Part shown: positions 22,238 to 24,784 of the stretch, one piece after another
Position numbering within the stretch: position 1 is the first letter of the stretch
Layout of the letters: each line of letters starts with the position of its first letter
Assembly (NCBI RefSeq): GCF_003115845.1
Contig: NZ_KZ819026.1
Location: 124,001-188,000, forward strand
Direction of reading: 5' to 3'
DNA: 64,000 nt
Source of the DNA: Brenneria roseae subsp. roseae
GTDB taxonomy: Bacteria > Pseudomonadota > Gammaproteobacteria > Enterobacterales > Enterobacteriaceae
Position numbers and translations under genes: made by a program
The notes under the pieces: generated by a model
Databases searched by the model: none
What the model was told of the DNA's origin: nothing
What the model saw: only the letters and a program-made list of their open reading frames with translations

Positions 22238-22684
22238 ATGACTGAACGCCCTTTTTGGCAGCACAAGACATTGTCAGAGATGTCCGATGATGAATGGGAG
22301 TCGCTGTGCGATGGCTGCGGTCAGTGCTGTTTGAATAAGCTGATTGATGAGGATACGGAGGAAATTTATTTCACCAACGTAGCCTGTAATCAACTGAATA
22401 TAAAAAGCTGTCAATGTCGTAACTATGAACGTCGTTTTGAGTATGAGCCTGACTGCATCAAGCTGACGCGAGAAAATCTGTTGACTTTCAACTGGCTACC
22501 GGCAACCTGCGCCTATCGTCTGATTAATGAAGGGAAAACGTTGCCGCATTGGCATCCGCTGATTACCGGCTCCAAGACAGCGATGCATGGCGAACGGATT
22601 TCTGTGCGCCATATTGCCGTGCGTGAAAGTGAGGTTATTGACTGGCAAGATCACATTTTGAACAAACCGGCGTGGGCAAGATAG
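22238..22684 (+). CDS. ycgN: YcgN, UPF0260 cysteine-cluster protein
   Basis: Cytoplasmic protein of 148 residues in the UPF0260 family (CxxCxxCC, zinc/iron-chelating type). The key feature is [11 protein letters not shown] at about residues 24-34, followed by further conserved cysteines in [20 protein letters not shown] and EPDCIKL, suggesting metal binding. Length and sequence match E. coli YcgN. The function is unknown. It follows ycgM by 100 bp in the same direction. Confidence 0.93.
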
Positions 22685-22725
22685 CCATAATCCACGTTCT
22701 TCCCTGTGCAATTTCCAATATGCTG

Positions 22726-22731
22726 TATAAT
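22726..22731 (+). promoter_or_regulatory. Promoter -10 element of the 65-residue gene
   Basis: A perfect TATAAT lies 38 bp before the ATG at 22769, with only a poor -35 match about 17 bp upstream. Together with the ribosome binding site AGGAGG at 22755-22760 it suggests the small gene is transcribed on its own rather than only by read-through from ycgN. Confidence 0.55.
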
Positions 22732-22768
22732 TTTAATACACCAGCAAATAGCACAGGAGGAAGAACGG

Positions 22769-22966
22769 ATGATTAACTTTGAAAAAATCATTATTCAATA
22801 CAGCGATCAGTACACTGATTTTGCTGCCTCCACGATCGCTTTTATGGAAAGTCAGCAGAAAGCGATCAACGCTGATGAGGTGTCGAAAAATATTCCTAAA
22901 GAGAAGAGACAATTTTTCAAAGAGAGATTAGTCCATTACCGGCGTATCTATCGCCCTCAGCAGTGA
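22769..22966 (+). CDS. Unrecognised 65-residue protein
   Basis: I do not recognise this protein. It is hydrophilic, without a signal peptide or membrane segment, begins MINFEKIIIQYSDQY and ends with a basic, aromatic C-terminus (ERLVHYRRIYRPQQ). Helix-favouring composition suggests a small helical protein. Evidence that it is real: a textbook AGGAGG at 8 bases from ATG, a TATAAT upstream, and a GC-rich terminator directly downstream, all within 300 bp. E. coli has no gene like it between ycgN and dsbB. It might be a lineage-specific regulator or adaptor, but nothing in the sequence says so. Confidence 0.75.
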   Translation: MINFEKIIIQYSDQYTDFAASTIAFMESQQKAINADEVSKNIPKEKRQFFKERLVHYRRIYRPQQ

Positions 22967-22989
22967 AGGAGCGTTCTGTGTTTCAACCT

Positions 22990-23030
22990 GATCACACTCT
23001 GCCCGGGTGTGATCCCGGGCCTTTTGTTTT
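22990..23030 (+). terminator. Terminator with an overlapping alternative hairpin
   Basis: GCCCGGG at 23001-23007 and CCCGGGC at 23014-23020 form an all-GC 7-bp stem followed by CTTTTGTTTT, an intrinsic terminator for the small gene. GATCACAC at 22990-22997 and GTGTGATC at 23007-23014 form a competing 8-bp stem that shares bases with the first, so only one can fully form. Confidence 0.78.
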
Positions 23031-23041
23031 TCTTCTGTTAC

Positions 23042-23572
23042 TCAGCGACTGAAGAGGTCGCGACGCTTGGGGCGAAAAGGCTGAGCAATCAGGACCAATA
23101 CCGCAATCAGTAAATAAGCCGCGAAAATACCGACTAACCACTGTGGCATTTCCAGTGACAACCACTGCCATTGACGTTCGGAACAGTCTCCTGAAGCATT
23201 GAACACCGCTGGAATCCATTTATCCAGCGGCAGCCATGACGGAAAACTGACAAAGAAGTCACAGGTGTTAAATGGGGACGGGTTAAGCAGTATATCCGTA
23301 TGTTTCCAGGCGAGGCGCAGGCCTTCAAATGCGCTGTATATCCAAAGTCCGATCGCGGGATAACGCAGCAAGCCGGCCGGGGCAATCGCTCCCAGCAAAC
23401 CTGCGCCCATCACGCCAAAAAGCGCATTGCGTTGATAGATGCAAAGTACGCAAGGCTTCAAGAGCATGACGTGCTGGAAATAAAGCGCGACCAATTCCAG
23501 AATCAAGGCTGTCAACGCCAGTAACAACCAGGCACCGCGCCCGCGTGAGCAACGGTTAAGAAATCGCAACAT
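23042..23572 (-). CDS. dsbB: Disulfide bond formation protein DsbB
   Basis: Inner-membrane quinone-dependent oxidase that regenerates DsbA in the periplasm. The 176 residues have four membrane segments. The redox-active pairs are intact: Cys41-Cys44 (PCVLC) in the first periplasmic loop and Cys104/Cys130 in the second. The C-terminus is basic (PKRRDLFSR), consistent with a cytoplasmic end. In E. coli the gene follows nhaB on the same strand. Here the corresponding upstream region holds only a remnant. Confidence 0.98.
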
Positions 23573-23704
23573 AACAAGTATTCCATGCTAAAAATGATCG
23601 AATCAGCAGTGTAAACCGATTTGGTTTCACCACCATCATTTCACTGTGCAAAACGTAACAATCTATTTATTTGATTCTTTTCTTTAATTCTATGACGGTA
23701 CGAC

Positions 23705-23737
23705 GATGGCGAAGAAGCTATCGGGTTCTCCGCCATC
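23705..23737. other. Imperfect 12-bp hairpin upstream of dsbB
   Basis: GATGGCGAAGAA at 23705-23716 pairs with TTCTCCGCCATC at 23726-23737 with one mismatch and a 9-base loop. No U-run follows on either strand. It lies between dsbB and the nhaB remnant, where an nhaB 3' hairpin would be expected. Confidence 0.4.
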
Positions 23738-23776
23738 ACTTTCCCACCGTCCAACTACTATACACGATTGTGGCGA

Positions 23777-23881
23777 TTAATGGCTGCCTGATGCATGCAA
23801 ATCCGGCGGCGGAATCCGGTGTCGCAGCAGGAAACCGATAAGCGGCGCGAGCGTGAATTCAACTCCGGCAGGGAGTAGCAT
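23777..23881 (-). pseudogene. nhaB: Remnant of the nhaB 3' end
   Basis: A 34-codon open stretch on the minus strand contains VEFTLAPLIGFLL, which matches the C-terminal region of the sodium/proton antiporter NhaB (E. coli has VEFTLAP in the same place). It lies exactly where nhaB sits in E. coli, between dsbB and fadR and in the same orientation, with the C-terminal end toward dsbB as expected. A full-length NhaB is about 510 residues; no other part is recognisable in the roughly 490-bp gap. I read this as an eroded gene. The match is short, so confidence is moderate. Confidence 0.55.
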
Positions 23882-24008
23882 CATATCTGAAATTTTTTAT
23901 AATCAAGCGGGAATATATCGTCGGCAGCCCCAATGGTTTTGTTTGCAGTCACAGTTTTACCTCGAATGTGATTTGTGTATGGCTGCGACGCTATATCATG
24001 TTTAGTTC

Positions 24009-24025
24009 GTCTGGTATGATGAGTC
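24009..24025 (+). promoter_or_regulatory. fadR promoter overlapping a FadR operator-like site
   Basis: CTGGTATGATGAGT at 24011-24024 is identical to the core of the E. coli fadD operator as I recall it. The same bases contain an extended -10 promoter (TGG followed by TATGAT at 24015-24020), so the similarity may partly reflect the promoter. The site is 40 bp before fadR and may allow autoregulation. Confidence 0.5.
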
Positions 24026-24064
24026 AGCTGTCATCGGTAAATATCGCTACGGAATATCAAACTC

Positions 24065-24784
24065 ATGGTCATAAAGGCGCAAAGTCCGGCTGGGTTCGCG
24101 GAAGAATATATCATTGAAAGTATATGGAATAACCGCTTTCCTCCAGGTTCAATTCTGCCAGCAGAAAGAGAGCTTTCCGAACTGATAGGGGTAACCCGTA
24201 CGACGTTGCGCGAGGTGCTTCAGCGTTTGGCGCGTGATGGCTGGCTAACCATTCAGCATGGAAAGCCAACGAAAATCAATAACTTCTGGGAAACTTCTGG
24301 ACTGAATATTCTGGAGACGCTGGCGAGACTCGATCATGATAGCGTACCGCAACTGATTGATAATCTTCTGGCTGTGCGAACTAATATTGCGGCGATTTTT
24401 ATCCGCACGGCGTTGCGGCAACACCCTGAAAAAACGCGCGAAGTGTTAACTCAGACGGGCTCGGTGGATGACAACGCGGATGCTTTCGCTCAGCTTGATT
24501 ATAATGTTTTCCGCGGACTGGCTTTTGCCTCGGGCAATCCTATCTATGGTCTTATCCTTAACGGATTGAAAGGCCTGTATATCCGCGTTGGCCGCTATTA
24601 TTTCTCTAATCCCGACGCGCGCAAACTGGCGATGGATTTTTATGGCCGGCTGGAAGTATTGTGCCGCGACGGGTTGTATGAGCAGGTGATGGATGTGGTC
24701 AGACACTACGGTAAGGAAAGCGGCGCTATCTGGCACAGTATGCAGAGCTCTATCCCACGGGATATTGCTGAAATTCGCCGTTGA
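24065..24784 (+). CDS. fadR: Fatty acid metabolism regulator FadR
   Basis: GntR-family transcription factor that represses fatty-acid degradation genes (such as fadD) and activates unsaturated fatty-acid synthesis; long-chain acyl-CoA releases it from DNA. The 239 residues have an N-terminal winged helix (about 1-75, with [32 protein letters not shown]) and a C-terminal FCD-type acyl-CoA-binding domain. The sequence matches E. coli FadR throughout. It is divergent from the eroded nhaB, as in E. coli. Confidence 0.98.

Follow-up and report, generated by a model that had tools for sequence, protein, structure and literature searches.

A 65-codon gene of Brenneria roseae subsp. roseae (22769 to 22966 on the forward strand, stop codon included) is a real, conserved protein-coding gene, and its product is related to both the theta subunit of DNA polymerase III (HolE) and YibT. 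Coordinates are those of the window, the whole stretch of 64,000 nucleotides that was analysed. YibT is the nearest known family of the 65-aa protein. Theta and YibT belong to one superfamily of small helical proteins, which probably includes GlgS as well, and there is good support for placing the 65-aa protein close to theta and YibT. There is an even chance that it represents the Pectobacterium-Brenneria branch of this theta/YibT/GlgS superfamily and serves as a small YibT/GlgS-like regulatory adaptor. The superfamily is known; the group to which the protein belongs, called the window clade below, is a branch for which Pfam, NCBIfam, and PHROGs contain no dedicated model. Among the papers listed on theta/HolE, YibT, and GlgS (titles and abstract openings, mainly open-access), none joins the three as a family. 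Among the same papers and those listed on Pectobacterium and theta, none describes the 65-aa gene in its title or abstract opening.

Relationship to YibT and GlgS

Against the 23 proteins of the window clade, the yibT profile gives a median of 59.1 bits (best 63.8). The medians of the other profiles on the same proteins are 43.4 bits for the GlgS-like group, 31.1 for theta, and 18.3 for GlgS. Profile matches with YibT extend over the full length in two directions (E-values of 9e-15 and 5e-17 with 100,000 sequences), and the hhalign probability for the window clade and YibT is 99.0. E. coli YibT (b4554) has 69 amino acids, four more than the 65-aa protein, and its DFMASSQAF...RLEYYRRLYRP corresponds to DFAASTIAF...RLVHYRRIYRP. 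The YibT start, MGKLGENVP, is absent from the 65-aa protein. The genomic places also differ; in E. coli yibT is located between mtlR and yibL, whereas the window gene lies between ycgN and dsbB.

YibT-like proteins are only about 39-48% identical to the 65-aa protein over the core. In several genomes, relatives at this level of identity adjoin mtlR and yibL, as yibT does in E. coli. Among the eight members of our YibT group, four (from E. coli, G009, G017, and G031) adjoin mtlR, and the other four (one on a plasmid, one in G010, and two in G019) were assigned by sequence alone. E. coli YibT itself obtains 13.3 bits with the Pfam theta model and has no GlgS match in Pfam; no NCBIfam model matched it at an E-value of 0.1.

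GlgS, the surface composition regulator, has a GNM motif that is absent from the 65-aa protein. With the GlgS model PF08971 the protein obtains 20.5 bits over the core, which is below the cut-off of 32.2. GlgS and the protein are tied together by GlgS-like intermediates, among them L114 and L116, both of which pass the GlgS cut-off and also have a weak theta match. The hhalign probabilities of GlgS are 41.7 with YibT, 42.6 with theta, and 54.2 with the window clade; those of the GlgS-like group are 98.6 with GlgS and 97.2 with the window clade. By these comparisons, GlgS is joined only weakly to YibT, theta, and the window clade when compared with them directly, and its connection depends mainly on the GlgS-like group.

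In a phylogenetic tree of 68 proteins, one branch supported at 99/99 has theta on one side and the window clade and all other proteins on the other. The window clade is recovered as a single group with support of 56/73, and the order of YibT and GlgS is not separated. Note that this tree is built on 78 columns, its bootstrap has not settled, and long branches meet in it, so that the branching order is beyond it.

GlgS over the cut-off is found in none of the 10 genomes that have the window clade (G000-G008 and G030; 59 relatives searched), and the other matches at an E-value of 0.01 in these genomes are theta copies, not YibT. By contrast, GlgS passes the cut-off in each of the five genomes with YibT-like proteins (G009, G010, G017, G019, and G031). 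This distribution hints at a replacement. It is a hint and not a test, because nine of the ten window-clade genomes belong to one genus.

The protein may also share no more than the helical scaffold and have a partner that is specific to its lineage and has no part in replication or in control of the surface. The window clade does have its own conserved N-terminus, MINFEK, besides the core residues, and its genomic place is not that of any of the E. coli genes holE, yibT, and glgS, but the close profile similarity to YibT from end to end suggests more than a common scaffold. We regard this explanation as conceivable and rather doubtful.

Relationship to theta and HOT

With PF06440, the Pfam model for DNA polymerase III theta, the 65-aa protein obtains 37.8 bits and passes the cut-off of 34.6. 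The 65-aa gene passes it in five of the nine genomes of the genus and misses it in four, and the one Pectobacterium ortholog tested is below it with 31.4 bits. The NCBIfam theta model PRK10969 has a cut-off of 97 bits, which the protein fails with 37.4. Because the clade straddles the Pfam cut-off, the same gene may carry the name theta in some species and be called hypothetical in others. This is a warning for annotation wherever window-clade genes are named by that cut-off.

The PHROGs matches of the protein point to theta/HOT. A search of PDB sequences gives three matches, which are HOT and theta, and the same ones lead the profile search. The AlphaFold2 monomer model (mean pLDDT 86.7, pTM 0.74) has helices at residues 4-11, 16-28, 35-40, and 44-61; the core helices are common to theta/HOT, which is also the best structural match. 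All of the top five Foldseek matches of the model are HOT or theta. Their E-values are weak, the best being 0.072 and none at or below 0.001, although the superposition of HOT on the model gives 0.7 A across 46 alignment columns. The best VIA-align match is 2ido_B with Z 6.7 and an rmsd of 2.4 over 53 residues, but Z 5.0 is attained by an unrelated chain, and such values are, by the warning of the tool, common for helical bundles. The predicted fold is supportive of kinship with theta/HOT, not decisive. A preliminary description of this DNA had called the gene an orphan and its protein unlike any recognised. Neither statement stands, given the PF06440 score, the best match of the model to HOT, and YibT as the nearest family.

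The same genome has a canonical holE (C5:49848-50057, 138 bits), and theta lies across the 99/99 branch, although in a tree of few columns. For these reasons the 65-aa protein is, judging from sequence, not the theta of the cell. Could it be an accessory theta, which would bind the epsilon exonuclease like HOT of P1 and replace or supplement HolE under some condition? Its Pfam score, HOT as the best match among PDB sequences and structures, and the retention of the theta core positions D-[LF]-A-A-[AS]..AF and F.ER[LV] are all in line with such a role. We nevertheless consider it unlikely. Besides the presence of holE, the YNMPV loop and the C-terminal SRLPYEPK of theta are absent from the window clade, and the two form separate clades in the tree, with the reservation that few columns and long branches lie behind the separating branch. 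The failure with the NCBI model and the score of the Pectobacterium ortholog speak against it as well. Moreover, four of the nine genomes of the genus (G001, G002, G004, and G008) have, besides holE, a further copy that is far better as theta (89.6-122.9 bits). Theta is itself termed a subunit of unknown function (PMC5477539). The loci concerned in these second thetas are L038, L039, L040, L103, and L104; the copies of L103 and L104 have 84 amino acids and an ending unlike that of holE.

Possible function

According to PMC5437024, YibT of Salmonella is one of the ORFs under tight sigma-S control and has the signature of a theta domain. The butanol tolerance of E. coli is reported to increase when either yibT or glgS is deleted and to decrease when they are overexpressed (PMC7537768). 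Deletion of yibT is also described as altering the hydrophobicity of the surface and the fatty acids of the membrane (PMC4888631). From the sigma-S control of Salmonella YibT, the solvent phenotype of yibT and glgS, and the surface phenotype of yibT, together with the profile kinship, we infer the regulatory-adaptor role of the 65-aa protein. It would be a stationary-phase or stress-type regulator, working as YibT and GlgS appear to work. Its theta-like helical face would dock on a partner protein, and the effect would be on envelope or surface properties, not on replication. With identities of about 39-48% over the core, the phenotypes of the relatives are weak evidence for the function of this gene. 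YibT is termed membrane-related (PMC4888631, PMC7537768), for which a soluble adaptor gives no direct explanation.

A wider proposal, which we think doubtful, is that theta, YibT, GlgS, and the window clade make up a single set of related adaptors, in which the fold of a replisome subunit was repeatedly reused for stationary-phase surface control, with one generalist copy in Pectobacterium/Brenneria compared with two in E. coli. If so, the butanol phenotype shared by yibT and glgS would stem from shared ancestry and a shared partner. The apparent orphan becomes a handle on its relatives, as YibT and GlgS have phenotypes without mechanisms. Since the window clade and the intermediates stand between theta, YibT, and GlgS, identifying one partner could bear on all of them.

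The gene, its conservation, and its neighbors

The gene starts with ATG at 22769, has 65 codons, and ends with TGA at 22964-22966. In the list of open reading frames the same frame appears as an 86-aa ORF with a GTG start at 22706. The ATG at 22769 is supported as the start because ATG or GTG is found at that place in all 23 orthologs, with a purine-rich stretch before it. Upstream is ycgN (22238 to 22684, forward strand; NCBIfam NF003498, 312.3 bits, cut-off 256), and downstream is the convergent dsbB (23042 to 23572, reverse strand; NCBIfam NF002485, 293.7 bits, cut-off 157). The gene is probably monocistronic. The gene context gives no pointer to function.

The frame is open in 23 of 23 orthologs, which encode 65-68 amino acids. 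When the 22 others are compared with the window gene, dS is finite for 13, and dN/dS for these is 0.055-0.145; in the remaining nine, synonymous sites are saturated. For all pairs the median is 0.051 and the maximum 0.40 (70 of 253 pairs, those with dS from 0.1 to 1.5). That this is a real 65-codon gene between ycgN and dsbB with signals of its own, as the preliminary description proposed, is thus borne out by the sequence and the orthologs, including the conserved frame and a dN/dS not near 1. A spurious ORF or decaying remnant might have been suspected from the short length and from the lack of a recognised relative in that description, but it is refuted by the frame and the dN/dS, both the signals and the presence throughout the genus add to this, and we give the idea practically no credence.

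All nine genomes of the genus Brenneria have the 65-aa gene. A scan of named genomes found 18 loci, which belong to Brenneria, Pectobacterium, Samsonia, Symbiopectobacterium, and one record titled Serratia marcescens. Within the family, the window clade (at least 138 bits) is present in 6 of 217 genomes from four genera, and intermediates at 85-95 bits are present in 4 of 217 genomes from three genera. In the loci of the genus, taken with 1.5-kb flanks, ycgN is found in 9/9 and dsbB in 8/9 (absent in L017), and within 2.5 kb of the 18 named-genome loci they are found in 12 and 14, respectively. The Symbiopectobacterium-like orthologs, as well as the intermediates L108-L111, have no ycgN, dsbB, or mtlR within the examined flanks. 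The flanks of the four intermediates at 85-95 bits gave no match to probes for the ycgN-dsbB, mtlR, or glgS neighborhoods. Phage records have no match to the 65-aa protein at an E-value of 1e-5. Plasmid records have 21 matches, all below 60% identity; the one inspected, H1, is YibT-like.

Expression signals

A predicted -10 box, TATAAT, is located at 22726 to 22731 on the forward strand and is followed by an A/T-rich stretch; no -35 box is seen. TATA[ACT]T at positions -40 to -49 is kept in 22 of 23 orthologs. A two-hexamer scan of a 3-kb region found no sigma-70 promoter at the 65-aa gene; its two promoters (3.8 expected) both lie at 24336-24364. Sigma-S prefers C directly before the -10 box, and the base at this position is G in 21 of the 22 orthologs listed. 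A lone -10 box with an A/T-rich stretch and no visible -35 box would be compatible with sigma-S or with an activator and is proof of neither. The Shine-Dalgarno sequence AGGAGG (22755 to 22760, forward strand) lies 8 nucleotides before the start codon, and a purine-rich stretch occurs there in the orthologs too.

Downstream is a predicted intrinsic terminator, TGCCCGGG-TGTGAT-CCCGGGCC followed by a T-rich tail (23000 to 23029, forward strand), found by the scan and conserved in the orthologs. Its stem is G+C-rich and occupies 23000-23021. The same 3-kb scan gives five terminator-like sites where 3.2 (sd 1.7) are expected, which is not significant alone. A hairpin with a T-run scoring at least 25 is present in 19 of 23 orthologs, and the four that have no terminator-like hairpin are the Symbiopectobacterium-like ones. 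The same rule finds a hairpin in 41 out of 230 mononucleotide shuffles, and in no shuffle does the score reach 25. Since the orthologs are related, the 19 terminators and the 22 -10 boxes are not independent cases. Conservation, rather than the scan count alone, thus speaks for the predicted terminator. The complete expression unit of the preliminary description therefore stands for TATAAT, AGGAGG, and the terminator, and not for the promoter, which is incomplete. The further claim that such tight signals mark an undescribed gene is not sustained, as a small monocistronic gene normally has such signals.

A second possible hairpin, GATCACAC...GTGTGATC, pairs 22990-22997 with 23007-23014. It overlaps the terminator stem (22990-23021 together), so the two are mutually exclusive. 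L013 has a hairpin of the TCACACCC...GGGTGTGA type as its best one. A palindrome over the -10 box, TGYTGTAT-N7-ATACARCA, was considered as an operator and rejected; it is present in several Brenneria sequences and is not kept in Pectobacterium. Rfam at gathering scores finds no RNA family between 22000 and 24200.

Variation around the locus

In E. coli K-12 (L063) the gap between ycgN and dsbB holds hlyE and umuDC, so the cargo of this gap differs among genera. In the record titled Serratia marcescens (L056, JADMXW010000006.1), the ortholog and an adjoining oxidoreductase-like gene resemble those of Symbiopectobacterium, and the record may be misnamed. On the other side of dsbB, nhaB is located between dsbB and fadR in E. 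coli. Among the loci that extend as far as fadR, those of Brenneria and Samsonia have no match to it (23572-24065 in the window). nhaB follows dsbB in seven of eight named Pectobacterium loci, and in P. fontis (L059) it is reduced to a 37-aa match.
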